A stretch of 22,860 bases of DNA from a virus: IMG/VR virus record IMGVR_UViG_3300025435_000639, positions 1-22,860 of that record; one strand, 5' to 3'. Of this stretch, positions 4,404 through 22,434 are shown piece by piece; positions within the stretch are counted from its first letter, which is position 1, and each line of letters starts with the position of its first letter. Under the pieces are notes generated by a model. The model saw only the letters and a list, made by a program, of their open reading frames with translations, searched no databases and was not told the DNA's origin. A program made the position numbers and the translations under genes.

Positions 4404-5230
4404 TATCTTTGTACCGGAGTTTGTACCATTTGTTTATTGATGTCATTCTTTTTAAGTTTTTCCCAAGGATCTTGTTGGCCTAATTTTACATTTTGCCAAA
4501 ATGAAAGATCTTTGCCTTTTGATACTAGATAGGAAGCAATCTTTTCAGCGTCAACCAATCTGCCATTGCCGTATGAAGGATGATGGAAGTCTTTTGGACT
4601 AGAAGGATTGCCTTCTAATATTTCACGATTTTTAAATGTAAGGTCTGCGTTGCTACCAGTTAAGTCATGTCTGTCGTGTGTAGCATAAATTTCTACAATT
4701 TCCATAATGTCAAGCATATAAGCAATTTGACTTAACTCAGCATCAATCATTTGATGGCGTGAGAAAAATCCAAATAAGTCATACCATTCTTTAGGAACAA
4801 TAGGGAAAATAGAATATGGATGTTCGCGATGAACATGAATTTTAAGTAGTTTAAATTCGCCAGTATGGTCAGTGATAATTTTATCCCAACCTGTAGTTTC
4901 CATCAAAGCATCGTCATTCCAAACAAACAACCAATCAGCTGATGCTTGTGCGGCTAAGCCATTATAGTAACGATTTAATCCAACATAACCCATTGGTTCA
5001 AATACCATTACAGTATAATGAATTCCTTTTTGTTCCATCCAAGGCTGGATTGATTCGGAAAAATATTTTAATCCAACTTCATCATCATTATCAAATGCTA
5101 ATAATAATTGGACCCCGTCAATATCAAGTACTCTGTTAAAAACACTAATAATACTTAATTTTAATGCTGTAGTTCTGCCTCTTGTAGGAAGCATTACCGC
5201 TATTTTATAATCGTTTTTGGACTGGGCCAT
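4403..5230 (-). CDS. GT-A fold glycosyltransferase (GT2-like)
   Basis: This 275-residue protein opens with AVMLPTRGRTTALKLSIISV, the nucleotide-binding start of GT2-type glycosyltransferases, and has LLLAFDNDDE followed by ADWLFVWNDDALM, where NDD is the likely DxD-type metal/nucleotide-sugar site. It should transfer a sugar from a nucleotide donor to an unknown acceptor. As first gene of the sugar block it could use the donor made by the five downstream enzymes. The acceptor may be a virion protein, a host surface polymer or modified DNA; nothing in the sequence decides this. The start ATG is preceded by AAGGATAA. A moderate promoter and a small palindrome lie directly upstream. Confidence 0.8.
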   Translation of the reverse strand: MAQSKNDYKIAVMLPTRGRTTALKLSIISVFNRVLDIDGVQLLLAFDNDDEVGLKYFSESIQPWMEQKGIHYTVMVFEPMGYVGLNRYYNGLAAQASADWLFVWNDDALMETTGWDKIITDHTGEFKLLKIHVHREHPYSIFPIVPKEWYDLFGFFSRHQMIDAELSQIAYMLDIMEIVEIYATHDRHDLTGSNADLTFKNREILEGNPSSPKDFHHPSYGNGRLVDAEKIASYLVSKGKDLSFWQNVKLGQQDPWEKLKKNDINKQMVQTPVQR

Positions 5231-5241
5231 TGTTATCCTTT

Positions 5242-5254
5242 GTACAGTTTGTAC
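5242..5254. promoter_or_regulatory. Short palindrome in the leader of the sugar operon
   Basis: GTACA and TGTAC form a perfect 5-bp inverted repeat with a 3-nt centre, between the predicted -10 box and the glycosyltransferase start codon. It could be an operator half-site pair; at this length it may also be chance. Confidence 0.3.
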
Positions 5255-5264
5255 TATTTACTGG

Positions 5265-5293
5265 ATAATATAGGTACTTAATAATTTTCTTAA
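5265..5293 (-). promoter_or_regulatory. Probable promoter of the sugar-nucleotide operon
   Basis: The minus strand has TTAAGA (-35, 4 of 6 consensus), a 17-nt spacer and TATTAT (-10). The spacer ends in ACCTA immediately before the -10 box, the same junction as in the promoter at 6606-6634. It is the only gap (59 nt) between MazG and the sugar genes, so a promoter is expected here. Confidence 0.5.
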
Positions 5294-5574
5294 TCTTTGT
5301 AGATTGTAGACCAAGTAACTAACTTAGCTGACTTTTTTAAAGTAGCGTCGTGGAGTTCTTTCTCAGTAAATAGTTCGTGAGCTTTGAGTAATTCAATTAA
5401 TAAAGTAACATCACCTAGTTCTTGTACCAGTTCTTCGCGCTGAGTGCGCCCAGATTTGAGATTTTCTCCTTCTATCCCAAATCTGCGGCACTTGCTAATA
5501 GCTTGAATAACTTCGGCACATTCCTCTTGAAGAATGTCTAAAATTTCGTTAATCTTAGGCGAAGAGGTCTTCAT
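5290..5574 (-). CDS. mazG: MazG-like nucleotide pyrophosphohydrolase
   Basis: The preferred start is ATG 5574, inside the queD 3' end, because AGGGA precedes it by about 8 nt and homology begins there; a longer frame upstream only shadows queD. The resulting 94-residue protein has the MazG metal signature: E17-E18-x-x-E21 followed by E52-x-x-D55 (QEECAE and ELGD). These all-alpha enzymes hydrolyse NTPs or dNTPs to monophosphates and pyrophosphate. In phages they are thought to adjust nucleotide or alarmone pools. Here it is coupled to QueD by a 20-bp overlap, so it might also act on nucleotides of the deazaguanine pathway, which is inference. Confidence 0.8.
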   Translation of the reverse strand: MKTSSPKINEILDILQEECAEVIQAISKCRRFGIEGENLKSGRTQREELVQELGDVTLLIELLKAHELFTEKELHDATLKKSAKLVTWSTIYKD

Positions 5575-6058
5575 TCCATTCCCTATGTCCTTCGCGATAT
5601 GCCATGTTAGACATTGTTTCACGAACTTCAACACGATAGCACCATAAACGGTCAGCTTCGGATTGTCCCCACATATCAGGTATGTAAACTCCGTTAACAT
5701 ATTTGTAAAGTTGATCAGCTAGGCCTTCACAACCTAATTTAGGAAGAATGGTTAGTTTAGCAAGATTGCGTTTTTCCATTTCTTTATAAAAGTCAAGTTC
5801 CGGATCATCTTCTGCTACTAACAATGTATGGTCAAACTGTGACTCTAATACCGATTTCAATTCTTTAAGTCCACCGTAATCGGCTGCCCAGTTGCGTACA
5901 TCTAAATCATTTGTACCAAAATAAAACTTCATACTAAATGAATAGCCATGAATTAAATTACAATGACTATCAGCTCTCCATTGACGATAAGCGCAAGGAA
6001 ATGCGTCATGATATTCTTTAGTACTTGTGTATTTGTATTGTATTGCTTGGTTTGCCAT
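5555..6058 (-). CDS. queD: QueD-like 6-carboxy-tetrahydropterin synthase
   Basis: QueD converts dihydroneopterin triphosphate to 6-carboxy-tetrahydropterin, the second step to 7-deazaguanine bases. The 167-residue T-fold protein shows the catalytic cysteine region at residues 33-39 (CNLIHGY, C33 as the likely catalytic Cys), FDHTLLV in the middle and the C-terminal VEVRET with the base-binding glutamate. The zinc site is unusual: the position of the first His ligand aligns with C22 (in FPCAYRQW) and HGH is HGY. I recall this FPCAYRQW/HGY variant from other QueD-like proteins, so it may be a subfamily and not a defect. It starts at ATG 6058 behind TAGGAGAAAT and has its own promoter. Confidence 0.8.
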   Translation of the reverse strand: MANQAIQYKYTSTKEYHDAFPCAYRQWRADSHCNLIHGYSFSMKFYFGTNDLDVRNWAADYGGLKELKSVLESQFDHTLLVAEDDPELDFYKEMEKRNLAKLTILPKLGCEGLADQLYKYVNGVYIPDMWGQSEADRLWCYRVEVRETMSNMAYREGHREWNEDLFA

Positions 6059-6713: not shown

Positions 6714-7361
6714 ATGATATTTATAGACAACAAATATACCCGTTGGTATTACAACATTATCAATCGAGCACAACTAAGAGTGCTTACTTGTTATACTGAA
6801 GAACATCACATTATACCAAAGAGTTTAACCGGCTCAAACAATCCGACGAACTTAGTATTACTTACTGCTCGTGAACATCTTATTTGCCATATGCTACTTA
6901 CTAAAATGGTAACTGGTAAACATTACAAAAAGATGATACATGCCTGGTGGGCTATGGCAACACTTAAGAGTGATTGTCAAGATCGACACAAACTCACTTC
7001 TCGACAATATGAATCTATACGAAAGCTATATTCTAACTATATGTCTGAGCACAATCCAATGAAGGATCCACTCTCTCAACAAAAAAGAGTCGATACTTGG
7101 AGAGCAAATAGAGCCGCACGAGATTACATTCCGCCGCGAGTCCTTAAGGACAAATTCATTACGCCAAGCGGCATATTCAAAACCAAAAAAGAAATACAAA
7201 AAGTTGTAGGTATTCCAGAATGGACACTAAACACTATCTACAACGATTTAGATGCTTACCCTGTTACAAACGGCAGGGCAAGCAAAAAAATCAATCACTT
7301 AAATATCGATCCAACAAAAACTTGGAGAGACAATGGGTTCGGATTACTTGCCGTTTCTTGA
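6714..7361 (+). CDS. HNH homing endonuclease (only plus-strand gene)
   Basis: This 215-residue protein begins at ATG 6714, preceded by GGAAGGA; an in-frame GTG at 6654 adds 20 residues unlike the family. The first 60 residues hold NKYTRWYYNIINRA and the HNH core: H31-H32, N46 and H55 or H59 within EHHIIPKSLTGSNNPTNLV and TAREHLICHML. This is the standard start of free-standing HNH endonucleases in T4-like phages, which cut a specific site in a related phage and spread by repair. The C-terminal part (about 140-200) has a helix-turn-helix-like stretch (TKKEIQKVVGIPEWTLNTIY) suited to site recognition. It runs against all neighbours and overlaps the folE 3' end by 18 bp tail to tail. Confidence 0.9.
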   Translation: MIFIDNKYTRWYYNIINRAQLRVLTCYTEEHHIIPKSLTGSNNPTNLVLLTAREHLICHMLLTKMVTGKHYKKMIHAWWAMATLKSDCQDRHKLTSRQYESIRKLYSNYMSEHNPMKDPLSQQKRVDTWRANRAARDYIPPRVLKDKFITPSGIFKTKKEIQKVVGIPEWTLNTIYNDLDAYPVTNGRASKKINHLNIDPTKTWRDNGFGLLAVS

Positions 7362-8141
7362 TTGTAGTTTAATATTATCGTAAAACTCTTTCTTAGTACC
7401 CATATCGCTATTAAAAGCCCCAAGTAGTACCGCTGTTTGTGTTAACGAACTATGAGCCATAATGCCCCTGTTAATGCAACAGCCATGCTCACATTCGATA
7501 TAAACACCTACATCCTTACTACCCGTTGCTTTCATTATTTCTCTTGCGATGTCGTTACACAATTCTTCCTGAAGAGTTCCACGACGGGCACACCATTGTG
7601 CAATCCTTGTATATTTTGACAAGCCGATAAGTTTTTGTGCGGCAATGATACCAATGTAGGCAACACCTGTGACAGGCTGATGATGATGACTACACATACT
7701 ACGCAACTCACTGCGTACAACCAACATACCTTCATATCTGTCCTTGCTATCATTAGGAAACGCTGTACAATCTGGCGCTTTGTCGTATCTGCCAGACATA
7801 ATTTCATTAAAGTACATTTTAGCTAATCGTTTAGCTGTGCCTTTACTATTGGGATCATTTTCGCGATCAATAAGCAATGCGTCTAGCACACCTTCAAATG
7901 CTATAGTGGCATTAGCAATTAATTCATCTCTGTGCCCGACTACATACTCACTAATGTTATCCCCAGCCCAGAAGCGTTTCTTATCGCGCTTCATATTAAA
8001 GCGAATAGCATCTGCTAAATTTGCTTCCTTATAATCTTTATCGCTCATGTTAATAGCCGCATCTTCGTACCCTGGATGATATGGAGCCTCATTAACTAGT
8101 TGTTCTGCTTTTTCTCTATCTTCTGTTGTAAATGATGTCAT
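7344..8141 (-). CDS. folE: GTP cyclohydrolase I
   Basis: FolE opens the GTP ring to give dihydroneopterin triphosphate, the entry step to both folate and 7-deazaguanine bases. The 265-residue protein carries the zinc/catalytic set: C150, H152 and H153 in CSHHHQPVTG, and H219 with C221 in ECEHGCCINRG. The LSKYTRIAQWCARR segment (174-187) is the conserved subunit-contact helix. Together with queD and dpdA in the same window, deazaguanine synthesis is the more likely role than folate. It begins in an ATGA overlap after an unknown gene. The last residues KKEFYDNIKLQ are duplicated at 6418-6450 on the far side of an HNH cassette, so this 3' end may have been replaced by homing. Confidence 0.93.
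   Translation of the reverse strand: MTSFTTEDREKAEQLVNEAPYHPGYEDAAINMSDKDYKEANLADAIRFNMKRDKKRFWAGDNISEYVVGHRDELIANATIAFEGVLDALLIDRENDPNSKGTAKRLAKMYFNEIMSGRYDKAPDCTAFPNDSKDRYEGMLVVRSELRSMCSHHHQPVTGVAYIGIIAAQKLIGLSKYTRIAQWCARRGTLQEELCNDIAREIMKATGSKDVGVYIECEHGCCINRGIMAHSSLTQTAVLLGAFNSDMGTKKEFYDNIKLQSRNGK
7362..7394. repeat. 33-bp imperfect direct repeat, copy 2 (intact folE 3' end)
   Basis: Same orientation as 6418-6450, with differences at one codon (three bases) and one silent third-site-like change. It starts immediately after the HNH stop codon. Confidence 0.8.
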
Positions 8142-8578: not shown

Positions 8579-9634
8579 CTATGTAATATTTTTTAACAGA
8601 TTTGTAGCCGAAAAGAAGTTTTCAGAAAGATCCTTGGCTTGTTTTTCGATATATGGAATTCGAACATCATATGATTCCATATCTTCCATAATCACTCCGC
8701 ACAAGTCTGGCCGATAAACATTATACGCTTCATAACTTTCAGTCCATATACTAGGATATTTGAAATGATTATAATACATTTCAGTATAACTTAGACGATC
8801 CGGAACTAAAGGAATGGCTCCTAGTAATGCGCCTTCATAACAGCTAATGCCAAGTGTTTCTTGTAAGTTAGCCGAGAATACAATCTTAGCTTCGCCTAAC
8901 AATGTATGATATTCGTGCTTAGTAAGTTCTTGTTCTTGACAAACAACAAATTCATACTGTGGCAAATGATATGCTAAGTCTTTAAAAATATCAACTTGTT
9001 TTTCTGGAGCAATTCTATGTGGGAATAAAATTAAGTCACGCTTTTTTAAATTCTTATACGGTGCTAGTTCAGACTCCATATATTCCATTGGCCACCCTGT
9101 TTGTGTTACATAAGGATTGGTGCCATCGTCATATATGTCAAACAAATTGCGGGCAAACATATCAATATGAAACTTGGTAGCAAAGTAGTTGTGATCATAC
9201 GAAAAGAAATAACTCTTTTCAGCGTGTCTGACCCAAGGCTTATCTCCGACTAAGCGTCCAAGAAAGTCTTGTGGGTCATAACTACCAGCATGCCATAAGC
9301 CATGTGTGACTACTGGAATATTCAGTAGCTCGCTCATGTACTTTAAGTTTATGATACCAGGATGCCAAGCATCGGTAAACAAGAAGTGATCGCCAGGCTG
9401 TACTGATCCGGAGCAAAATAGCCGCCCCATTTGTTCAACTTGACTAGACTTGTATATATTGGTGCCACCAAAATTAAGAAAAGCACCAGGAGTAGTGGCT
9501 GTAGGAATATCCTCAGGCCCAGATAGAATTTGAACATTGTGTCCTGCCTTGCGTAAAAGTGTTGGTAAGTGAGTTTTCCACTCGCAAGTATAACGAGTGG
9601 AAACACTTTCGAGATCGACTAAAAAAACGGTCAA
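8579..9634 (-). CDS. GT-B fold glycosyltransferase (GT4/DUF2827-like)
   Basis: This 351-residue protein has a GT-B layout. The C-terminal half has LILFPHRIAPEKQVDIFKDL (about 201-220), the donor-site start of GT4-like enzymes, and the EX7E motif E259-E267 (ETLGISCYE) followed by GALLGAIPLVPD. The N-terminal half has GHNVQILSG and DAWHPG. It should transfer a sugar from a nucleotide donor. It is the last gene of the clamp-dpdA run, so its acceptor could be the modified DNA, as T4 glucosyltransferases act on hydroxymethylcytosine, but a protein or glycan acceptor is equally possible. Start is TTG 9634 in a TTGA overlap with the upstream gene; the next methionine is too far inside. Confidence 0.75.
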   Translation of the reverse strand: MTVFLVDLESVSTRYTCEWKTHLPTLLRKAGHNVQILSGPEDIPTATTPGAFLNFGGTNIYKSSQVEQMGRLFCSGSVQPGDHFLFTDAWHPGIINLKYMSELLNIPVVTHGLWHAGSYDPQDFLGRLVGDKPWVRHAEKSYFFSYDHNYFATKFHIDMFARNLFDIYDDGTNPYVTQTGWPMEYMESELAPYKNLKKRDLILFPHRIAPEKQVDIFKDLAYHLPQYEFVVCQEQELTKHEYHTLLGEAKIVFSANLQETLGISCYEGALLGAIPLVPDRLSYTEMYYNHFKYPSIWTESYEAYNVYRPDLCGVIMEDMESYDVRIPYIEKQAKDLSENFFSATNLLKNIT

Positions 9635-10617: not shown

Positions 10618-11196
10618 TTATTCCTTATTTCCGTAATCAAAAATTGATCCAAATGTAGATGAAGCCATTGCTTCTACTTTTTTCATTGCGCCACTAGCTG
10701 TTCTAAATACCCACGAATCTTTCGTGCCACGCTTGCGTTCAAAGTAACCCCATTTTGTGCCAGGTGCGGTGCCGCCCGGCGTAATATTACCATTGATAAT
10801 ATTTTGTCTAGCAGTTTCATATGCTTCTTCGTATAATTCAGATACATGAGCTTGTGAAAGATCATATACTTCATTTTCAACAATAACACCATCCTTAGTC
10901 TTAACTCTTAATTGATGTTGTAATTTTTCAAACACTATCGAATCTTTAAATGCTGTATTGCTGATATCACATTCACGCATAGTAGCAACTGAAAGTGGAC
11001 TAACAGCTTCGGTAGCACGAGTTTTTACTTCTAAATCATACTCGGGTCCGCCGTCAGCACCTTTGCCATTACTAATAGGAAATCCACTAGTCTTCATTTT
11101 TTCTTCAAATGCTCTACCAGCTCTTCCGCCCATGTGTGTAGGTAATTGTTCACCACGCCAATCAACTTTAATTTTTTTAACTTTGATTTTGCTCAT
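10618..11196 (-). CDS. Possible PD-(D/E)XK-type nuclease, 192 aa
   Basis: Residues 44-60 read GKGADGGPEYDLEVKTR. An acidic residue after a glycine-rich turn followed by D-L-E-V-K is the pattern of the PD-(D/E)XK nuclease core, with D48 or D54, E56 and K58 as candidate active-site residues; E31/E32 in GRAFEEKM could be the helical acidic residue. Similar arrangements occur in MvaI/BcnI- and MutH-type enzymes. The protein is basic at the N-terminus, as expected for DNA binding. It overlaps the 172-aa gene by ATGA. If it is a nuclease, an enzyme that spares modified DNA and cuts unmodified DNA would make sense beside dpdA. Assignment is tentative. Confidence 0.6.
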   Translation of the reverse strand: MSKIKVKKIKVDWRGEQLPTHMGGRAGRAFEEKMKTSGFPISNGKGADGGPEYDLEVKTRATEAVSPLSVATMRECDISNTAFKDSIVFEKLQHQLRVKTKDGVIVENEVYDLSQAHVSELYEEAYETARQNIINGNITPGGTAPGTKWGYFERKRGTKDSWVFRTASGAMKKVEAMASSTFGSIFDYGNKE

Positions 11197-11711: not shown

Positions 11712-12592
11712 TTGATATAACCTCTACTGTAGCCGCTTGGACGGTCCTTACCATCCGCAAACGCCTGATCCCACTCTATGTTACGATTATAACACTTAGT
11801 CCAGAACTTGTCAACATCAAGTTGTCCAGATTGAATCCAATATACTGCTTTCTTCATATGCCAAATAAATTCTGGATTACGAGGACTAGGGAATACCATT
11901 GTACAGGCTTTCCATAATAAATTGGCAAAGTCTGTCGTTACTTTCTTTTGTGCTCCAAAAATAATTAAGGCTTGGTTAGCTAAAAAGTCTTCATCAAATA
12001 CAGCAGAGCCAGAACTTAAATCGATAACAATTTCGTATTTCTTTTCTGGGATAGTAGGAACCATAATATCGCCCCATAAGTCTTTATTACTACGACCTAC
12101 TACAGTAATATCATTTTGTACCTTATCAATCTTAAGTGTGTTATACGCTACCCACGCTAAGAATCCACTACCAAGAATTAGTATGTTACCTTTGCGCTTG
12201 TCAATTTCGTGTTGAGCTTGACGAATCAAATTGATACCACAAGCTACAGGTTCTATAATATATTTAGGATCAGCTTGGGGAATAACTACAAATTCATCTT
12301 TACGAACATTGTAGTAATCAGCATAAGCAGGTTCGCCGCGAGTAGCCACATAGTCGCCTACTTGAACATCGGAAACATTGCTACCTACTTGGGTAACTCG
12401 ACCAACACCTTCGTGCCCGCTCATTTCAATAGGCAAAGGTCCAAACCCACCTGTCATCATGTCAATGTCCGAACGACAAACACCAGTCATTACAGCCTTG
12501 ACTTCGATTTCGTTTTCGGTGTTATTTGGTTTGTCCCACTCTAGCTCACTGAACGAACCTTTACCGTCAGTGGCTAATAATCTTACTTTCAT
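11702..12592 (-). CDS. Zinc-type alcohol dehydrogenase (MDR superfamily)
   Basis: The start is ATG 12592, which forms an ATGA overlap with the upstream oxidoreductase stop; a longer frame would lie inside that gene. The 296-residue protein has the catalytic-domain zinc ligands C39 (GVCRSD) and H60-E61 (SGHEGVGRVTQVG), then VGDYVATRGEPAYADYYNV, and a Rossmann loop ILILGSGFLAW. The structural-zinc lobe with four cysteines is missing. The family oxidises or reduces alcohols and sugars with NAD(P). It is coupled to a Gfo/Idh/MocA-type enzyme, and the pair probably acts on one sugar or cyclitol substrate. Nothing links it biochemically to dpdA beyond the shared transcript. Confidence 0.82.
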   Translation of the reverse strand: MKVRLLATDGKGSFSELEWDKPNNTENEIEVKAVMTGVCRSDIDMMTGGFGPLPIEMSGHEGVGRVTQVGSNVSDVQVGDYVATRGEPAYADYYNVRKDEFVVIPQADPKYIIEPVACGINLIRQAQHEIDKRKGNILILGSGFLAWVAYNTLKIDKVQNDITVVGRSNKDLWGDIMVPTIPEKKYEIVIDLSSGSAVFDEDFLANQALIIFGAQKKVTTDFANLLWKACTMVFPSPRNPEFIWHMKKAVYWIQSGQLDVDKFWTKCYNRNIEWDQAFADGKDRPSGYSRGYIKWD

Positions 12593-13500
12593 GCTAACTC
12601 GTAAATGTCGATGTTTTCGATAGTTTTGTGAATCCATACATCTAATTCTAGTTGTAGATCCCAAAACGCCGGTGTGTCTTTCATTTCTATAGCAGTACTA
12701 ATCATACGCTTATATGCATCTTCTGGACATAATCCAAGTTCGAAGTAGTAATGGCTACCATCTTCAAATGTCATTAAAATACTACGGTCATCACCAGTTA
12801 ATGTGCGCCAGTTAGATTCAATAATCCAATGGCAGCCATGTGTATCCACATAACTTAATTCCACTTGATCTTCTACATCATAGATACCGTTAACATCTAC
12901 ACGGCCATAATCTGTTTGTGTAAGTTCAGGTAATGTCCAAAAGCGTTCAGCCGATTCTGTAAGCATATTTGCTTGGTCGTAACTAAATCCAGATAATGAT
13001 TGGAATAAACTTAACAAATGCGGAAGTAAATCTCTACTGACTCCACCGTATGCTAAACTCTTAGTAGTAAACCATGTACCCGGATTAGGAACACGGTCAT
13101 TGTTGTTCCAAGTTAAGTTAATGATTTTTGCTTTGTGTGCTAGTTGTGTTAGTGTAGCAATATTTTCACGATACTGATTATTCTTAACCATCATGAAGCG
13201 TGTATCAGGATAATCGTCTACAAGATTATACCACGCTACTGCTGACTCTAGTCCTGGCTTCTCGATAAACACAATACGAGTATGATTTGCTATAGCACGA
13301 GCAATATCTTCGTGTGTAAAATTAGGAGTACAAATATGAGCAGTATCAAAACAAGCATGATCCTTGAATACTTCTTCCAATTCATAATAATCGGCGTCTT
13401 TACTTAAATCAGGATCGACTGTAACAATCTCATGACCAAGTTCAGTTAATACTTGTTTGTATAACTGCCCAATGCCCATTCCTACAATAAGACTTTTCAT
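12589..13500 (-). CDS. Gfo/Idh/MocA-family oxidoreductase
   Basis: This 303-residue protein begins with a NAD-binding fold (SLIVGMGIGQLYKQVL, glycine-rich loop at 7-12) and has the family signature EKP at residues 80-82, preceded by HICTPNFTHEDIARAI. The C-terminal half is a beta-rich substrate domain (NGIYDVEDQVELSYVD). Enzymes of this family oxidise or reduce sugars, inositols and bile pigments with NAD(P). The usual catalytic lysine in the EKP motif is K81. It overlaps dpdA upstream and the MDR gene downstream by ATGA junctions, so the three are strongly coupled. Confidence 0.85.
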   Translation of the reverse strand: MKSLIVGMGIGQLYKQVLTELGHEIVTVDPDLSKDADYYELEEVFKDHACFDTAHICTPNFTHEDIARAIANHTRIVFIEKPGLESAVAWYNLVDDYPDTRFMMVKNNQYRENIATLTQLAHKAKIINLTWNNNDRVPNPGTWFTTKSLAYGGVSRDLLPHLLSLFQSLSGFSYDQANMLTESAERFWTLPELTQTDYGRVDVNGIYDVEDQVELSYVDTHGCHWIIESNWRTLTGDDRSILMTFEDGSHYYFELGLCPEDAYKRMISTAIEMKDTPAFWDLQLELDVWIHKTIENIDIYELA

Positions 13501-15179
13501 GCTTCACTTTCAAGTGCGTCAAGTTTAGTTTCATCCAATCCAGAATCATCCATATGGTGTTCTTCTGGTTCCTCTGCTTCAAATAAATTACTAAACATAG
13601 TACTAGCATTAACTGTTTTCTTACCAGTAGCGCCACGAGTACCGATAATGCTTTGCCAAAACTTATCATACAAATCAATAATAGCAATAGCTGTTTCACG
13701 ATCCGGAGCAGCAAATATTGCTTCTACTACATCCTTAAAGTATACAGTATCAAAGCGTTCATCTACAAGCATATTGGGACATTTGCCCGCATCATACTCG
13801 CGATTAGCTCGTTGTACTGATTCTAAGTGTGTCCAAACATTATGTCCCATGAGTAATGCGTAAGAGAATGAATCCCAACTTGTTTTACCTTCTTTGCCTA
13901 CTTTATTTTTGTCGCCTGGTTTATATATGCAAATATCTTTAATCTGTAAGTTATTACTAACAGGACTATCGTCGAAGTGATGAATTAGTTTATCTTGTAA
14001 TACAGCATCGCTAAATTTGCGTGTATCTGTGGCATACTTTTTATCGTCAACGATAGCACTCATACGATAACACCACTTCTTACGATCTTCGATATCTATT
14101 TGATGGTAGACTTGTCCATTAGCGGTTGCTAAGAATGGACTAGCACAATCAAAACTAATAGTGAAAGCAGGATTAACATACTTACGAACAGCCCGTTGAA
14201 TATCAGTCAACAATAATGCCCATTCTAGTTTACTTGTACCCAAGAAGTGCATCCAATCTTGTTTACCTTCTTGTAGTAATCCATCGAACTTCAGTGCTAC
14301 TAGTCTACGCAATACTAAGTCAACGTCACACATATTCTGGCCACCCATAGCCCAACCATTAAATGCCTTATTGCCGTAAATGTTTGGATCGCAGAAGTCT
14401 TTCATCTGAGCATACCAGTCATCGGCCTGTGCGTGATTTTCACCTTGTAGTACATTTAAGAACTTACAAGCACCTGTGCGGTGTTTGATAAAATATTCGT
14501 TATTGTACTTGGTTGCTTCGACGGCCTGCTGATAAGATTCAATACCGGTAGCGGCACGACCAGCTGGACTACGCTCTACCCACGCTGGAATATCAAGTAC
14601 CATACCATAGTCCATAATACCGTCCATCCAAGCTAATACTTGGCTACGCTTTTTCTGTGCCGCATCTAATTTAGCTTGATATTCTTTTACATGGTCAATC
14701 TTAGTATATTTGGTGTTGCCGTTCTTATCATGTTTAGGTGTACCATCTGGCTTTAACGCAGGAACTTGTTCTATGCCTTTAGCTATAGCCTCAGCCATTT
14801 TAGCGGCTACTTCCGGGCCGTTAGGATCACGCCATTCACCTTCCCACACACCTTTACCAATTTGGAATCCGCCCGAATCGCCTAGAATGAAAGTGTTAGC
14901 ACGATCCCTGTTACGAATCATGTCTTCATTCCAGTCTTGTTTGTTAAGATCCAAGTTAGCGTGTCCTGCTGAATACAAACTCCACTTATATGTAAACAAA
15001 CCTTTTTGACTATTAAGCCAATTAAGCATTTCCATATCTTGGATATTAGTAGGCATACGGGCTTGGTCAACATATTGACTGCCTCGTTGTTTTCCTATGT
15101 AAGTACCGTAGAACCCCGACAATGCTGGCAAAAAGATAGCATAGTCGGATTGTTTAGCAGTTAAATTATCTTGCGCCAT
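13497..15179 (-). CDS. dpdA: DpdA-like DNA guanine transglycosylase (7-deazaguanine insertion)
   Basis: DpdA proteins are relatives of tRNA-guanine transglycosylase that swap guanine in DNA for a 7-deazaguanine such as preQ0. All TGT landmarks are here in order: D101-SGGFQ (base recognition), D196 in LDIPAW, Q245-G in NVLQG, G279-G280 in WAMGG, FLGTS near 312-316, and D344 in ISFDCASPF, the expected nucleophile. The TGT zinc site (CxCxxC and a distant H) is not evident. At 560 residues it is longer than TGT (about 375), with a charged insertion around 140-180 and an acidic C-terminal tail after 530. It lies two genes downstream of the sliding clamp in one overlapping run. With FolE and QueD nearby, DNA modification is much likelier than tRNA modification. 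Confidence 0.85.
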   Translation of the reverse strand: MAQDNLTAKQSDYAIFLPALSGFYGTYIGKQRGSQYVDQARMPTNIQDMEMLNWLNSQKGLFTYKWSLYSAGHANLDLNKQDWNEDMIRNRDRANTFILGDSGGFQIGKGVWEGEWRDPNGPEVAAKMAEAIAKGIEQVPALKPDGTPKHDKNGNTKYTKIDHVKEYQAKLDAAQKKRSQVLAWMDGIMDYGMVLDIPAWVERSPAGRAATGIESYQQAVEATKYNNEYFIKHRTGACKFLNVLQGENHAQADDWYAQMKDFCDPNIYGNKAFNGWAMGGQNMCDVDLVLRRLVALKFDGLLQEGKQDWMHFLGTSKLEWALLLTDIQRAVRKYVNPAFTISFDCASPFLATANGQVYHQIDIEDRKKWCYRMSAIVDDKKYATDTRKFSDAVLQDKLIHHFDDSPVSNNLQIKDICIYKPGDKNKVGKEGKTSWDSFSYALLMGHNVWTHLESVQRANREYDAGKCPNMLVDERFDTVYFKDVVEAIFAAPDRETAIAIIDLYDKFWQSIIGTRGATGKKTVNASTMFSNLFEAEEPEEHHMDDSGLDETKLDALESEA

Positions 15180-15760
15180 TATTTAAGACCCATTTGTTTT
15201 CTTATTTCAGTCGCTGAAATAGAGTGCGTATCCTCGTCGAATACTTCGTTTTCAATTTTATAACCAACATTACGACCATAGGTAATGTTTGTAATATTAG
15301 GAACGAATACAATAATATACTGTCCTTCATACTTTTCCTTTAAATCCGCATGGATGAAGTTTTCTACTTCTTCTTTTTTAAATGGATTAGAATCATTCCA
15401 ACCTTCGCAATCACGGATCATAATACAAACTTGACCTGTTTTAGCAATAGCACGGTCAAACAATGCTCTATGTCCGGCGTGCCATGGCTGCCAACGCCCT
15501 AGCATTTGAACAGTAGGCTTACGCCAATCAAATCCATCTGGATGTGCGGTTGGCTTAGTATGTCTGCCCCATTTAATTTTATTCCAAACTCTTTCATGAA
15601 ACCAAAATAAACATATTTTAGTTAACACTTCGATAGAAGCGATACTACCAGCAACTACTAGTTCTCCTGTAACAAGAAAACTAACAATAAATGTGTCGAT
15701 AGTACCAGTAAGGCGCCATGATAGCGCCTTAACTAAACTTCTAATATTAGTGTCAAACAT
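15179..15760 (-). CDS. DUF2061 membrane domain fused to an HxGH nucleotidyltransferase
   Basis: Residues 5-66 match DUF2061: RSLVKALSWRLTGTIDTFIV, a second hydrophobic stretch (about 34-55) and a terminal HERVWNKIKWGR. Residues 84-193 form a nucleotidyltransferase domain of the NMN/pantetheine adenylyltransferase superfamily with H94-A-G-H97 (GRWQPWHAGHRAL) and ISATEIR (181-187), the second nucleotide-binding motif. The domain activates a phosphorylated substrate with ATP or CTP. The membrane anchor is unusual for this activity. I recall similar fusions in marine phage genomes but cannot verify it. Substrate is unknown; NMN, a sugar phosphate or a lipid head group are possible. TAATG junctions couple it to the clamp and dpdA. 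Confidence 0.8.
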   Translation of the reverse strand: MFDTNIRSLVKALSWRLTGTIDTFIVSFLVTGELVVAGSIASIEVLTKICLFWFHERVWNKIKWGRHTKPTAHPDGFDWRKPTVQMLGRWQPWHAGHRALFDRAIAKTGQVCIMIRDCEGWNDSNPFKKEEVENFIHADLKEKYEGQYIIVFVPNITNITYGRNVGYKIENEVFDEDTHSISATEIRKQMGLK

Positions 15761-16482
15761 TATTTAGATTGAGCTGGTAGAATATAAGAATAAACAGCAA
15801 GTCCGGAATCAACAATAATCTGCATTGCGCCTTCATCACTAATACGCATTACTTTATCGCCATACAAGTCAAGAATGCCAATAACAGCTTTGACTGGCCA
15901 ACTCCATGCTCGCTTGAGATCACCTTGTACATCTGGTTGGAATACAAAGTTACCAGCGTGTGTTGAATGATCTCCAAAGAAGAACTTCAAATCACCGCCG
16001 TCTACTTTAACTTGGAAATTGTTTTCTTCGCTATTAGCTGTAGCTTGCATTTTCAAACGCTGAATAGCCGCTGCGCTTGGTTCAACCTCTAAGTTCCATT
16101 TAACACCTTTGAACTTAACAGTCTTAATCTTTTCATTAGCAACTTCGGCTGCCATAAAACGATATGAATTCTTAAAGTCGCCTGCTTTGTTCACAAAGTT
16201 TAACTGATCCGGCGCATTGTCGGCTCTGCGATTAATAGCAAGTGTAGCATCTTCTTTGTACTCTTGTAAGTTCAAAAGAATTTTAAGTTTGGCTAAATTT
16301 GGCATACCAAATGTACCAATAAATTCTGCTACTGGATTGATTGTTTTACCTTCTACAACAATCGAATTATCTTCAGCTTTGCCAAAGATATTTGTTTCAG
16401 TGTCAGTTCCAACTACACGAACTTGTTCAATACTGCCCAAGTCAAAAGTATGTGAAACTAAGTCTAAAAGATGATCACGCAT
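15760..16482 (-). CDS. 45: DNA polymerase sliding clamp, gp45-like
   Basis: The 240-residue protein is close in length to T4 gp45 (228). The features are KTINPVAEFIGTFGMPNLAK near 46-66, a predicted two-domain beta-rich architecture, and the ending GLAVYSYILPAQ characteristic of gp45 clamps. It forms a trimeric ring that tethers the gp43 polymerase and, in T4, also activates late transcription with gp33 and gp55. It is first in the long operon that contains dpdA, and its start is preceded by AAAGGAAA. The clamp loader genes 44 and 62 and regA, which sit between 43 and 45 in T4, are absent from this interval. Confidence 0.85.
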   Translation of the reverse strand: MRDHLLDLVSHTFDLGSIEQVRVVGTDTETNIFGKAEDNSIVVEGKTINPVAEFIGTFGMPNLAKLKILLNLQEYKEDATLAINRRADNAPDQLNFVNKAGDFKNSYRFMAAEVANEKIKTVKFKGVKWNLEVEPSAAAIQRLKMQATANSEENNFQVKVDGGDLKFFFGDHSTHAGNFVFQPDVQGDLKRAWSWPVKAVIGILDLYGDKVMRISDEGAMQIIVDSGLAVYSYILPAQSK

Positions 16483-16509: not shown

Positions 16510-16538
16510 AGTATAACAGGTTTATTTAGGTTTTACAA
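16510..16538 (-). promoter_or_regulatory. Sigma70-like promoter of the clamp-dpdA operon
   Basis: The minus strand has TTGTAA (-35, 16538-16533), exactly 17 nt, and TATACT (-10, 16515-16510). The spacer contains ACCTAAATAAACC. Initiation near 16503 leaves a leader of about 20 nt with AAAGGAAA. No other clear promoter is seen before 8575, so it may drive about 7.9 kb. Confidence 0.75.
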
Positions 16539-17449: not shown

Positions 17450-20110
17450 TTAGAACTCAAATAAATTTTGAAATGTATTTTCAGTATTAGTAGCACTAGC
17501 TAAGTCCCAATCTAATACACTTAATAAGTTATCAATCTTTTGGTCTACAATAGTAGCTTCCATTAAGGCATCATCAAATGGAAGTTCTTTAAACCAATCA
17601 GGCAAACGTTGCTCATCTGTAGGGTAACCAATACTAGTCCAACCCAATGGATTTGGCTTTAACTTACATACAATAGTTTTCATGCCGTCGACTACCGCAA
17701 TAGAATAATTGTCGCTATTCATACGACGTAGATTGTTCCAGTTTAGTGCCGCACGAACGTGTCCTGGCATATTAGCTTTGCCTGCTTTTTCTTCAGCCGC
17801 ACCATATTTGGTCAAGTTGTTTACACGTTTAGGTGTACCCTTTTCCCAAGCTGGACGCTCAGCAAACGCATACTTAAATTCTCTAATGCGCTCAACAATT
17901 TCTTCACGACCTGTACCAGTTAATACCTTTTCCAAAATCTCACTTAAAAACTCTTGAATTATTTTAGGAGTATCCGAACGCTTTAAGTCTAAGCCCATAG
18001 CTTTAATCTTGCCTGGCTTGCCTTCTACATCAAGTCGTTTGCCTTCTAAGTCATAAATTAATACAGCATAACGCTTCTTAGTAATAAACAAACTATTTGA
18101 CGCAACTAGTTCACGGCCTGCCTTAATAAGTTCCCCAGCTTCACGAGGACAATGAAATGCCTGTTCCATAAATGCTGGAAATGATTCGTTAACTTGATCT
18201 GCAATGCTATCATAGAGTTGAATACAAATTTCTTTACTCCACGGCATCTTTCCAGCCGCTACATCATCTTTGATAGCAGGCCAGGCAGTAAAATAACAAG
18301 AGTCGGTATCACCATAGATAATCGCTTGTCCTAAATGGTCTTTAACCCCAAAGATACATTCGTTAATATAACTAGCCATGTGTCGAGCAATACTACGACC
18401 CGATAGTGTAGTTGACTGTCCAATACGCTTGTCAAAGAAACGACAATGTGGATTTAAAATAGCACCGTATAACGAATTTAAGTTAATCTTCTTAACTAAC
18501 TGTCGCTTATCCCAGAACGCAATCATCTTAGGATCAGTAGCTTCTTTTTTCTTAGCTTGAAGTTCTTTACGTTCAGCATACCAACGCTCTAACAATCCTG
18601 GTACAACACCTTTACGCTCATATGTAACAATAGTGCCATTAGCGGTTAACATCCAAGGTTGGTTAGAATTAAACACCATGTCCCATATCTCTGCCGCACT
18701 ATGTACAGATGTTTCGCCATCTTGCCAATCAATAGTAATTTCAGTACCACGCTGTTGATCCATGACCGCTGTATATTCTAATGTGGCAAACATACCTTCC
18801 CACGCTGCCGCAAATGATTTGCCTTTGCTAACAATTTCATTAATATAACGGTCAGTCATAATAGGACGAAGTTGTCCTACTACAGTTTCCATTCCCATGT
18901 TCAACGCACGAATAGCAGATGGATAAAGTGAGTTAATATCCACAGCGCCAATCCACTCGTGAATACCTTTTTTAGGGTACGCAACATAAGCACCTGCGGC
19001 TGCCGTGTCTTCTTCGTCTGTTAATCGTTGTTTACGATTAGGTACAACAAGTCCGCGCTCATGTGCTTCGTTAATAATAGCTTGTTCAGTAACAGCTACG
19101 GCACCCATTGTAGTTGCTAACAATACAGTATTGGCGTGTGCGAGTTCGTTAGCTAAGTCCAAGAAGCGTAACTTCTTATCTAACTTGTCTAACAACAATG
19201 TATCTTGCCTGTTATACACAATAAACTGTTTAAAGTCTTGATTGTATAATTGATCCAATGTGCCTTCGTATTGTGTTTTACTTTCGCCTAGTTCATATTC
19301 AGAAATAGCATCCAATGAATAACTGTGTCGTTCTTCATAGGTGTACTTACGATATAATTGCATATAGTCCATGTGTACACGACCTACGATATCATAAGTT
19401 GTGCTAGTAGCACCATATCGCTCAAATTCACGCTCTTTAGGGAATTGACCCCACAAGCAGAATCTGCGTGTATCATCTTTAGACAATACTCGCTTGATAC
19501 GATTTACTGTGTATGGTATATCATAGCCTTCTGAGTTCCAACCTGAAATAACATCTGCGTCATCGATTAAGTCCAGGAATGTTTTTAACATATCCTCTTC
19601 TTTTTCAAACACAATACAGTTTTCAAAGTCTTTAGCAATATCATTAGCTGTTTCGATACTCATATGCTTGGGTGGCACAACCAATGTAACTAGTTGCTCC
19701 ATCCATTGTAAGTAAACAGAAATAGCTGTAATGCCGTTGAATGGATCAGTGGTAGGAGAGAATCCTTTCTCCTTGTGAAAGTCTACTTCAATGTCGAAGA
19801 ATGCCGCATGGAGTTCTGGAGCATCTTTATTTTTGTAATTTTCTTCTAAACAACGGAAGATAGGATTGATATCAGATTCATAAAGTTGTTTGCCTTTTTG
19901 AATGGCTACTTCCTTACGGAACTCTTTGCTGTTGCGACTAGAAAAGCGGGCTACTGGCGTGCCATAGATAGAAGTAAATTTACCTCTAGGATCATTGTAA
20001 TAAAAGATATAGTCAGCGGGATATTCTTTATAAATTCTTTCCCCGTTGATCCGTTCTACAACATGAATTCGATCGTGTTCTCTATCATACAAGGCATCAA
20101 CATAGGACAT
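17450..20110 (-). CDS. 43: Family-B DNA polymerase, gp43-like
   Basis: The replicative polymerase has 886 residues (T4 gp43 has 898). The 3'-5' exonuclease sites are intact: D106-I-E108 (Exo I), N192 and D197 in WNSEGYDIPY (Exo II), YNRQD with D303 (Exo III). Polymerase motifs follow: D391-INSLYPS (A), the KKINLNSLYG helix at 540-549 (B) and YGD601-TD603 (C), with KKRYAVLIYD downstream. It ends in a short clamp-binding-type tail (NTFQNLFEF). The start ATG 20110 is preceded by AAGGAG. The gene is a single uninterrupted reading frame without intron or split. An HNH gene overlaps its first codons on the upstream side. Confidence 0.97.
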   Translation of the reverse strand: MSYVDALYDREHDRIHVVERINGERIYKEYPADYIFYYNDPRGKFTSIYGTPVARFSSRNSKEFRKEVAIQKGKQLYESDINPIFRCLEENYKNKDAPELHAAFFDIEVDFHKEKGFSPTTDPFNGITAISVYLQWMEQLVTLVVPPKHMSIETANDIAKDFENCIVFEKEEDMLKTFLDLIDDADVISGWNSEGYDIPYTVNRIKRVLSKDDTRRFCLWGQFPKEREFERYGATSTTYDIVGRVHMDYMQLYRKYTYEERHSYSLDAISEYELGESKTQYEGTLDQLYNQDFKQFIVYNRQDTLLLDKLDKKLRFLDLANELAHANTVLLATTMGAVAVTEQAIINEAHERGLVVPNRKQRLTDEEDTAAAGAYVAYPKKGIHEWIGAVDINSLYPSAIRALNMGMETVVGQLRPIMTDRYINEIVSKGKSFAAAWEGMFATLEYTAVMDQQRGTEITIDWQDGETSVHSAAEIWDMVFNSNQPWMLTANGTIVTYERKGVVPGLLERWYAERKELQAKKKEATDPKMIAFWDKRQLVKKINLNSLYGAILNPHCRFFDKRIGQSTTLSGRSIARHMASYINECIFGVKDHLGQAIIYGDTDSCYFTAWPAIKDDVAAGKMPWSKEICIQLYDSIADQVNESFPAFMEQAFHCPREAGELIKAGRELVASNSLFITKKRYAVLIYDLEGKRLDVEGKPGKIKAMGLDLKRSDTPKIIQEFLSEILEKVLTGTGREEIVERIREFKYAFAERPAWEKGTPKRVNNLTKYGAAEEKAGKANMPGHVRAALNWNNLRRMNSDNYSIAVVDGMKTIVCKLKPNPLGWTSIGYPTDEQRLPDWFKELPFDDALMEATIVDQKIDNLLSVLDWDLASATNTENTFQNLFEF

Positions 20111-20700: not shown

Positions 20701-20708
20701 TATTTATA
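20701..20708 (-). promoter_or_regulatory. T4-type late promoter box
   Basis: The minus strand reads TATAAATA exactly, the T4 late -10 consensus recognised by gp55. It overlaps the stop codon of the DsbA-like gene and would start transcription around 20690, upstream of the HNH and polymerase genes. It is the only perfect copy in an intergenic position. Confidence 0.5.
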
Positions 20709-20964
20709 GTGTTTTGCCCACTTGAGTTAAAATTTGTTCTAGCAAGCTATGGTCATCTTGTGTACGGCCAAATTCAGCTTTGTGAGCAATCTTGATAGCT
20801 TTTTTAAGGATAGCTGGTTTAATTTCTAATTCTTCAGCAATAGCTTTAACTGTGTCATTCAATCCACCTTGTAGTGTTTCGATTTCCATAGTAACAGCCA
20901 TACCTTCATTGATAATTTGCTCTAGCTTTTTGGTTTGTTCTGCTGTGAATACGCGGTCTGACAT
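20704..20964 (-). CDS. dsbA: DsbA-like double-stranded DNA-binding protein
   Basis: This 86-residue, all-helical protein resembles T4 DsbA (89 aa) in length and layout. The central LNDTVKAIAEELEIKPAI followed by LKKAIKIAHKAEFGR corresponds to the part of DsbA that contains KDELGVDGKMFNRLLALYHK, and the protein ends in an acidic helix. T4 DsbA binds DNA near late promoters and assists late transcription. It is preceded by AGGAGA and a strong promoter. It is upstream of the HNH and polymerase genes on the same strand. Confidence 0.6.
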   Translation of the reverse strand: MSDRVFTAEQTKKLEQIINEGMAVTMEIETLQGGLNDTVKAIAEELEIKPAILKKAIKIAHKAEFGRTQDDHSLLEQILTQVGKTL

Positions 20965-21339: not shown

Positions 21340-22434
21340 TTATTTAAAATCGTTGTTAGGTAGATAGTAGTCATCGATATTAACTTTTTGAACAATATTA
21401 AAATCAGAATCTATACCTTCAAATAACATACGCTGTAGGAACACAGTACGCAAACTAGGCTTTTTTAGCTTGGTATCGAAATAATTTTGATTTTTATCAA
21501 AATCAAATATTTCTATTTTAGCTTGTTTTTTATAGTCAATCCATCTTGTAATAGTTCTTGCTTCAACGGAATTAATACTCCAAAGCTGAAAGTCGGCTGA
21601 ATCATAAAAATGTTGTAAGTATGTATTGGTGAAATCTGCTGTTAAATTATGAATTAAGTTTGGCTCACATAATGCCAACAGTCTAAATTTTACTGCTTGC
21701 CATTTAAAACAAAAGTTCCACCACCAAAACCAATCAGAATTTTTTTCTATAGTTATTCCGTAAGTAGCAGCAGATTGGCATACTCCGTCGACTAATAGCA
21801 TAGTAACTTTGGGATTTTGTATGCGTTGATTCAAATACGAAAATATGATATCTTTAGACAAATTACTATTGTACGAATCTGCTTTTTCTAACATAAAGTT
21901 TTTTAACATATCGCTACCAAACAATTGGTCGTTATGTTCACCGGTTACTAATATGATACTTTTGTCAAATAACCAGGGAGTTGTTTCGCTGTTAATTATA
22001 GTCAGTTTCCCAGCAATATAGGTTCTAAAGAATTCTTGATTTTCTACTACACCATCGTAACTAGTTAATACTCTAATTCTTTCTTTAACTTCTGCTAGTG
22101 GAAAGTTTTCTAAAAAGCTAATTAACATTCTCGTACTATCTATGCCGCCGCTCCACATTATACCTAAAGGTTTTTGTAGTCGAATGCTAAGATCCCAAAG
22201 TTCAGCAGCTCGTTTGTTACAACAATCTCTGTAAGATAAAAAATTTGATGTTAATGGTGGTAACTCACTACCTGGATAGACCTTAGTGGAAATAGGTTGT
22301 TTAAATTGATTAGTTCTATCAACTAATCCAACAGTAAAATTAATTGCTTTGTATAATAGTTTCCAATCAGCTATGTCTGTTTGTGATTGATTAGGTTCTA
22401 TAGATATAGGATTAAAATAGTATAGAGATTTCAT
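21340..22434 (-). CDS. Stand-alone asparagine-synthetase-like PP-loop amidotransferase domain
   Basis: This 364-residue protein has the PP-loop pyrophosphatase motif SGGIDS at residues 95-100 and, further on, LVTGEHNDQLFGSDML (163-177), equivalent to the SGEGADELFGG segment of asparagine synthetase B. The enzyme class adenylates a carboxylate and couples it to an amine. The N-terminal glutaminase domain with its catalytic Cys2 is absent, so ammonia or a partner must supply nitrogen. QueC, also a PP-loop enzyme, is an alternative, but its Cys-rich zinc tail is missing. It overlaps the upstream gene by ATGA. Substrate unknown; a carboxyl-deazaguanine or a sugar acid is conceivable. Confidence 0.7.
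   Translation of the reverse strand: MKSLYYFNPISIEPNQSQTDIADWKLLYKAINFTVGLVDRTNQFKQPISTKVYPGSELPPLTSNFLSYRDCCNKRAAELWDLSIRLQKPLGIMWSGGIDSTRMLISFLENFPLAEVKERIRVLTSYDGVVENQEFFRTYIAGKLTIINSETTPWLFDKSIILVTGEHNDQLFGSDMLKNFMLEKADSYNSNLSKDIIFSYLNQRIQNPKVTMLLVDGVCQSAATYGITIEKNSDWFWWWNFCFKWQAVKFRLLALCEPNLIHNLTADFTNTYLQHFYDSADFQLWSINSVEARTITRWIDYKKQAKIEIFDFDKNQNYFDTKLKKPSLRTVFLQRMLFEGIDSDFNIVQKVNIDDYYLPNNDFK

Follow-up and report, generated by a model that had tools for sequence, protein, structure and literature searches.

In T4-type phages, the C-termini of the DNA polymerase (gp43) and of the transcription factors gp55 and gp33 bind the sliding clamp gp45 and are interchangeable (PMC2988020, PMC7892883), and one DNA modification enzyme, the T4 alpha-glucosyltransferase (alpha-GT), binds gp45 in vitro and co-purifies with the sliding clamp (PMC13216743). 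DpdA, an enzyme that exchanges bases in DNA, replaces up to 27% of the guanines in phage 9g (PMC6884629). In bacteria it works with DpdB, a ParB-like ATPase (PMC12839542, PMC6392294), and phage nt-1, whose enzyme is a member of the DpdA2 group, has dPreQ0 in its DNA (PMC6884629). Here we examine a dpdA gene that lies two genes after a sliding clamp gene in a virus record of 22,860 bases (IMGVR_UViG_3300025435_000639; 'the window' hereafter means this whole stretch). We find it probable that the product of this gene exchanges guanine for a 7-deazaguanine in phage DNA as a client of the sliding clamp.

A dpdA gene linked to a sliding clamp gene

The features on which the argument depends are the following.

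13497..15179, minus strand: putative DpdA-type base-exchange enzyme of tRNA-guanine transglycosylase (TGT) fold, 560 aa, related to DpdA2 (fold prediction, catalytic residues, hhalign)
13500..13634, minus strand: predicted disordered tail of DpdA, residues 516-560 (predicted local distance difference test, pLDDT, < 50)
13581..13595, minus strand: clamp-binding-like motif FSNLF in the DpdA tail, residues 529-533 (motif conservation)
15179..15760, minus strand: DUF2061 and nicotinamide mononucleotide adenylyltransferase-like (NadM-like) protein (PF09834 E 6e-22, phrog_10255 E 9.5e-26)
15760..16482, minus strand: sliding clamp, 240 aa, PCNA fold (predicted structure; phrog_12062, of unknown function, E 4.2e-32)
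17450..20110, minus strand: family B DNA polymerase, 886 aa (phrog_262 E 1.5e-191)
17459..17473, minus strand: clamp-binding-like motif FQNLF at the polymerase C-terminus, residues 880-884 (protein end FQNLFEF)

Read in the direction of transcription, the minus strand encodes a small conserved protein, an HNH endonuclease, the family B DNA polymerase, a 302-aa protein and the clamp, followed by the DUF2061/NadM-like protein, DpdA, two oxidoreductases, small proteins, a glycosyltransferase-like protein, FolE and QueD. The clamp, NadM/DUF2061 and DpdA genes are each open from ATG to stop. An earlier note on this DNA had placed dpdA two genes after the clamp with overlapping junctions, and this arrangement holds, with one-base overlaps (TAATG) at both the clamp/NadM and the NadM/DpdA junctions; dpdA and the next gene, of the Gfo/Idh/MocA type, overlap by four bases (ATGA). 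The single promoter that was also proposed, at 16510-16538, is not supported above chance. It matches 9 of 12 positions (with TG before the -10 element): the scanned region holds 22 such sites compared with 28.1 +/- 5.4 in shuffled sequences.

The family libraries miss the enzyme, which is identified by its predicted fold and by a profile match to DpdA2. Sequence searches of Pfam, NCBIfam, PHROGs and PDB profiles gave nothing useful for DpdA, no Pfam match appeared up to E 1, and PF01702, the Pfam TGT family, had no match in the window and matched 14/14 control genomes. The structural model (pLDDT 84.6) is best matched by a tRNA-guanine transglycosylase (Z 20.0, root-mean-square deviation 4.7, 314 residues aligned), and all 50 matches listed are enzymes of this class (Z 18.6-20.0), consistent with a TGT-type barrel. 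The TGT-type catalytic residues D101, D196 and D344 that had been recognized earlier are, together with DSGGFQ, invariant in 25/25 aligned relatives. Classic tRNA TGTs carry a CxCxxC...H zinc site. The window DpdA has no CxCxxC site, and only C417 of its seven cysteines is invariant, with H446. When an eight-row alignment of the window family, which included the PA5oct, Vibrio 2.275.O and Phosso proteins as well as relatives from IMG/VR, was compared by hhalign with five DpdA2 proteins (nt-1, pf16, ACP17, Yut3 and K566), the probability was 94.2 (E 1.2e-7) over 190 columns, with the catalytic aspartates in register. The same family gave no match to 9g-type DpdA, and IMG/VR scans using the PA5oct DpdA alone or the Vibrio DpdA alone gave no matches. 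Judged by its modelled fold and this profile relationship, the product of the window dpdA gene is a member of the DpdA/TGT superfamily related to DpdA2.

The clamp assignment is likewise structural, its sequence giving no informative profile match. An AlphaFold2 model was built from 25 aligned sequences of the window and IMG/VR (pLDDT 91.8). It matches PCNA along its full length (Foldseek E 2.3e-11, VIA-align Z 18.7, 225 residues aligned), and PCNA or clamps like it account for all 50 PDB matches listed. Clamp annotation is carried by relatives in PAC2 and Phosso. Relatives of DpdA were found by tblastn in 13 phage records and relatives of the clamp in 31. The best 80 of the 513 encoding stretches from an IMG/VR scan were retained, as were the best 80 of 594 from a partly overlapping second scan based on an alignment. 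The resulting 156 dpdA loci are related, and most are top-scoring IMG/VR matches, but PA5oct (32% identity) and Vibrio 2.275.O (31%) are among them. Within this set, the clamp gene lies upstream of dpdA on the same strand in 153/156 loci (median gap 195 bases), and the order polB-clamp-dpdA is found in all 150 loci where polB was located. One small gene separates clamp and dpdA in PA5oct and two do so in Vibrio 2.275.O, both behind the polymerase; the DUF2061/NadM-like gene occupies this position in a minority of loci (16).

A clamp-binding-like motif in the DpdA tail

The predicted disordered tail of the window DpdA includes FSNLF. A motif of the form [FY]xx[LF]F is present in the last 62 residues of 120 of 129 distinct complete DpdA proteins, which are related, such that these counts are not independent. 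Nine proteins are without it: L002, L109, L143 and L147, which have other LF endings, and L003, L084, L111, L117 and L131. Among 125 anchored tails the motif occurs in 117, compared with 1.99 expected by shuffling, which ignores ancestry; one tail scored as motif-less in this count, L125, carries MFNNLF, its anchor having fallen late. In 101 tails the motif sits 7 residues past the anchor, and in 16 others with a different tail (KAEEFGIP...) it sits 33 residues past. One type of replaced tail carries the motif at its very end, immediately before the stop (TTFDSLFE, NNFMDLFE and, in the similar tail of L109, LNDSLFEF), the tails of L109 and L047 being visibly of one type. A second type, seen in L143 and L147, terminates with LNPSLFE. 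Because these two replaced tail types still hold the motif, it has been kept while both its place and its surroundings changed. The tails of L145, L152-L155 and L016 stop no more than three residues past the motif. A tree-based tally of 'C-terminal' changes (at least six) was dropped as a count of relocations, given that it counts together tails that were replaced and tails that simply stop no more than three residues past the motif.

The tail motif also resembles the end of the polymerase encoded by the same phage, as is evident in the window from FSNLF in DpdA and FQNLFEF in the polymerase. Among the 75 distinct polymerase tails that passed the filter for an intact C-terminus, 74 carry Fxx[LF]F, the exception being Vibrio 2.275.O, whose polymerase and DpdA have NNTDLFDW and NNNDLFGW, respectively. 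The corresponding pairs are HFDSLFGW and NSFNSLFDVD in PA5oct and, with enzymes of the DpdA2 group, PSLDDLFE and TTLDELFE in ACP17 and SSLEDLFGW and NSLDDLFG in Yut3. Resemblance between 8-mers, judged against shuffled tails, gave p values of 0.003 for the window, 0.0275 for PA5oct, 0.0005 for Vibrio 2.275.O, 0.0025 for ACP17, 0.0005 for Yut3, 0.004 for L047 and 0.0375 for L109. For the first five of these, the true pairing of polymerases with DpdA proteins is the best of 120 possible pairings, although the pairs come from two DpdA families and were chosen after the tails had been seen, with pf16 left out of the permutation. Over 112 loci, with ancestry not removed, polymerases whose motif has FF instead of LF are paired with an FF DpdA in 5/5 cases, and those whose motif has LF are paired with L in 102/107 and with F in 5.

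The earlier note had suggested that linkage to the clamp might physically target DpdA, and this proposal has gained support from a polymerase-like tail motif that is kept on tail replacement and has a counterpart in the unrelated 9g-type phages (see below). We propose that the flexible C-terminal tail presents FxxLF, equivalent to the C-terminal motif of the polymerase from the same phage, for docking in the ligand pocket of the clamp. Such docking would keep DpdA on newly replicated duplex DNA, and the tether could make modification processive and selective for the phage without a DpdB-type partner. We infer that the motif binds the clamp, that the substrate is DNA, that modification is coupled to replication and that the inserted base is preQ0 or 7-carboxy-7-deazaguanine.

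Other DpdA lineages and competing explanations

A further comparison is offered by phage 9g, the founding DpdA phage, in which polymerase, clamp, dpdA, FolE and QueD genes adjoin (L176, 36-3960) and DpdA ends with RLQDLFDE. From 226 records with a relative of the 9g DpdA, 11 further phages were picked, and in 12/12 of these 9g-type phages the clamp gene lies 0-4 genes after dpdA, the clamp of PSTCR7 and BcepGomr being a protein without annotation whose length and N-terminus are similar. A polymerase gene follows the clamp in 11 of the 12; the stretch from Dp-1 shows none. The 12 DpdA ends, which are clamp motifs of the bacterial type, are RLQDLFDE, RVQELF, RVMELF, RIQELF, RAQELF, MIQGLF, TIMELF, QQGLFV, REQRLF, DQPGLF, KQSLW and RQRRLF. 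For bacterial clamp motifs, a revision of the consensus QL[S/D]LF gives Q-aliphatic-x-[L/M]-[F/L], in which the Q is not a strict requirement (PMC13254535). In a different vein, Edwardsiella phage ZHS (L188) has a gene annotated as a nucleoside 2-deoxyribosyltransferase (5218-5628) between its dpdA and clamp genes.

A further 84 loci of this type (the best 80 of 455 in IMG/VR and 4 of 17 genome contigs) have the clamp gene in 79, and in the five without it the sequence stops no more than 820 bases from dpdA. Their distinct tails end exactly with L[FYW] in 59/66 cases, compared with 0.88 expected, and [LMI][FYW] falls within the last 8 residues in 66/66. Conservation is concentrated at the terminus, with L at -2 in 92% and F at -1 in 86% (entropy 0.5 and 1.0 bits), compared with 2.7-3.6 bits at positions -7 to -15. 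These 66-tail statistics exclude 13 distant genome-contig matches (L275-L287, < 45% identity), most of which have no plain LF ending. In a wider set that includes distant members, and in which an inward-shifted motif counts as a miss, L[FW] followed by no more than 2 residues occurs in 56/71 distinct tails: 53/63 with a clamp match in the locus and 3/8 without.

Five actinophages provide a control. In CRB2, Bipper, Sour, Finch and Hedgerow (L190, L288-L291), dpdA follows a ParB-like (DpdB-like) gene, directly in four and with one small gene between in Bipper. None of the five DpdA proteins has an LF ending (0/5), and phrog_947 finds a clamp in 0/5 of these genomes versus 4/4 clamp-type genomes. 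PF02195 was too insensitive for ParB, finding 1/5 actinophages, and a profile was therefore built from the five ParB-like genes; it found none in 20 other records, including the contig with an identical dpdA described below (G001), although it recovers its own five by construction and a distant ParB could escape it.

A possible second client of the clamp lies downstream of dpdA.

10618..11196, minus strand: putative PD-(D/E)xK nuclease with C-terminal FGSIF

This 192-aa protein has an invariant D48-x7-E56-x-K58 in 9 aligned rows, which is PD-(D/E)xK-like, and [FY]xx[LIF]F is found in the last 24 residues of 9/12 distinct relatives, compared with 0.17 expected. It has no significant family or PDB match: MutH was considered and set aside as not significant (E 0.038, 1/9), and none of the PDB profile matches, the best being acetylglutamate kinase at E 0.01, was taken as real. 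From these sequence features, the protein is possibly a clamp-tethered nuclease encoded beside the modifier. The QueD C-terminus (NEDLFA) was also considered as a clamp motif and is not claimed, since it occurs in 3/4 distinct tails from close relatives only.

Taken together, the best reading of these tails is that many phage DpdAs may be sliding-clamp clients. A broader scheme, which we hold only tentatively and consider somewhat doubtful, is that DpdA has alternative modes of recruitment, in which some enzymes are clamp-tethered and others, as in the actinophages, are partnered by DpdB/ParB, such that the clamp replaces DpdB, nt-1 represents a third mode, and the clamp also carries the nuclease encoded at 10618-11196. 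On this scheme, the clamp mode would have evolved more than once (in the window/PA5oct, T4-like ACP17/Yut3 and 9g types), each time with a motif that fits the class of clamp, and the window-lineage clamp with its nuclease would constitute a replication-borne modify-and-cut pair. A strict division into two modes is opposed by nt-1, which has neither the motif nor a ParB-like gene.

Several observations weigh against the proposal that DpdA is a clamp client. The relatedness of the 129 proteins, noted above, tempers the motif counts, and FxxLF in the last 45 residues is not rare, being found in 11/341 open reading frames of a related contig. Three DpdA proteins of the window family (L111, L117 and L131) have a degraded motif, and Phosso-type proteins (L003, L084/L085), which carry only EGLF or GGIFS, are also the exceptions to linkage, their dpdA lying away from the clamp gene. 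The polymerase-resemblance test fails for pf16 (p 0.17), for L143 (0.69) and for four 9g-type pairs (p 0.08-0.93), in which the polymerase C-termini have no such motif. The 9g-type motif itself, mostly QELF, departs from the strict QL[S/D]LF. In the Dp-1 record, a terminator and a promoter are annotated in the interval from dpdA to the clamp gene, and therefore a single transcript for the two is not general. The nt-1 DpdA2 sequence alone reaches an hhalign probability of only 14.6 against the window family. Moreover, the DpdA2 proteins of nt-1, K566 and pf16 have no LF tail, and nt-1 (which has no match to the ParB-like profile) shows that dPreQ0 can occur in a DpdA2 phage whose enzyme has no such tail. 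Finally, even for T4 alpha-GT, its share of modification was found to be set mostly by expression rather than by clamp binding (PMC13216743).

Some of these facts would suit an explanation in which dpdA and the clamp gene are neighbours only through a shared replication module, with the tail motif a structural remnant or a sequence serving another role and DpdA acting on DNA alone. PreQ0 and replication genes adjoin in several phages also without a clamp gene next to dpdA, the nt-1 enzyme is without the motif though its DNA is modified (PMC6884629), and in Phosso dpdA precedes the primase and helicase genes. (A 240-aa neighbour in Phosso was considered as a second clamp and rejected.) We nevertheless judge this explanation unlikely, given that the motif sits in a disordered tail, survives tail replacement and resembles the C-terminus of the polymerase that the same phage encodes, and given that 9g-type DpdA has a different clamp-type motif beside a different class of clamp, with the gene order reversed. 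Still less probable is that the motif recruits DpdA to a partner other than the clamp, for instance the clamp loader or the polymerase, which would likewise place it at the fork. The identity of the motif was read from the polymerase C-terminus rather than from a complex, which leaves room for such a partner, but work on T4 and RB69 puts C-terminal epitopes of this kind on the clamp itself (PMC2988020). That the enzyme is a queuine-type TGT that modifies tRNA beside an incidental clamp gene is very unlikely, for its TGT fold and the tRNA TGTs that make up the structural matches listed are countered by the lack of a PF01702 match, the absent CxCxxC zinc site, the relationship to DpdA2 and the lack of sense that a clamp tether would make for a tRNA enzyme.

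Pathway genes, neighbours and known systems

The remaining features of the window are listed here.

5555..6058, minus strand: QueD, 6-carboxytetrahydropterin synthase (phrog_2389 E 4.6e-34)
7344..8141, minus strand: FolE, GTP cyclohydrolase I (PF01227 E 3.7e-38)
8579..9634, minus strand: glycosyltransferase-like protein (44% tblastn identity to a PA5oct gene)
12589..13500, minus strand: Gfo/Idh/MocA oxidoreductase (PF01408 E 1.4e-6)
20704..20964, minus strand: small conserved protein upstream of polB (phrog_639, transcriptional regulator, E 1.6e-9)

FolE and QueD are thus both present in the window, as had been reported, and the QueD gene overlaps its neighbour (5290-5700) by 146 bases. A 235.8-kb contig with an identical dpdA (L004/G001) has QueD, a QueE-like gene (phrog_2076 E 1.9e-53) and, beside dpdA, FolE, and QueC and QueF have no match in this contig, which may be incomplete. 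Among 20 records, only Vibrio 2.275.O has QueF together with a full-length QueC. Either the host would supply QueC and preQ0 would be inserted, or the base would be 7-carboxy-7-deazaguanine, which has been reported in phages. The glycosyltransferase-like gene is conserved in the cluster (96/156 loci), and in PA5oct its relative is the gene immediately after dpdA. Although its Pfam match is weak (Glycos_transf_1 E 0.03), its conservation leaves room for a sugar that might be added to the base, which we mention as a lead only. The Gfo/Idh/MocA gene is present in 65/156 loci, many of which end early, and the small protein upstream of polB in 138/156. Elsewhere in the window, a 364-aa protein (21340-22434, minus strand) contains a PP-loop-like SGGIDS and has no match to any family model searched.

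If DpdA is indeed tethered to the clamp, a few residues would explain its processivity, its timing and its choice of target. Clamp motifs could then also guide searches for unrecognized enzymes that act on DNA, as is suggested by the nuclease-like protein encoded at 10618-11196. We found no publication linking DpdA to a sliding clamp in the literature covered, subscription papers lying outside that coverage, and the term 'sliding clamp' is absent from the 2019 survey (PMC6884629). Because T4 alpha-GT on gp45 is the nearest precedent, we regard the proposal as a known class of enzyme used in a known manner of tethering, in a combination that is apparently undescribed.

That precedent resembles the window system in being a DNA modification enzyme on a phage sliding clamp (PMC13216743). 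Alpha-GT differs in that it glucosylates hydroxymethylcytosine and performs no base exchange. Like the window DpdA, T4 gp43, gp55 and gp33 have a flexible C-terminus that bears a short motif of hydrophobic and acidic residues (PMC2988020, PMC7892883), but they are a polymerase and transcription factors rather than DNA-modifying enzymes. The bacterial Dpd system and the actinophage DpdA-DpdB pairs have in common with it DpdA-mediated base exchange into DNA; unlike the window DpdA, the five actinophage enzymes checked have no LF ending, and their genomes no phrog_947 clamp. The DpdA2 enzymes of nt-1 and T4-like phages are distant homologs over the 190 aligned columns, with three aspartates aligned and preQ0 genes near, whereas inserts and a clamp-linked gene set the window family apart from the nt-1 type. 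DpdA2 is itself divided, with the LF tail missing from nt-1, K566 and pf16 and a tail like the phage's own polymerase end in ACP17 and Yut3. The 9g/Seuratvirus/Iggy enzymes (PHROG 887) share the position of dpdA by clamp and polymerase genes, the FolE-QueD cluster and a C-terminal clamp-type motif. However, their DpdA has no detectable profile similarity to that of the window, their clamp is beta-like, their motif is mostly QELF at the very end, and their gene order is que-dpdA-clamp-pol rather than the pol-clamp-dpdA of the window.

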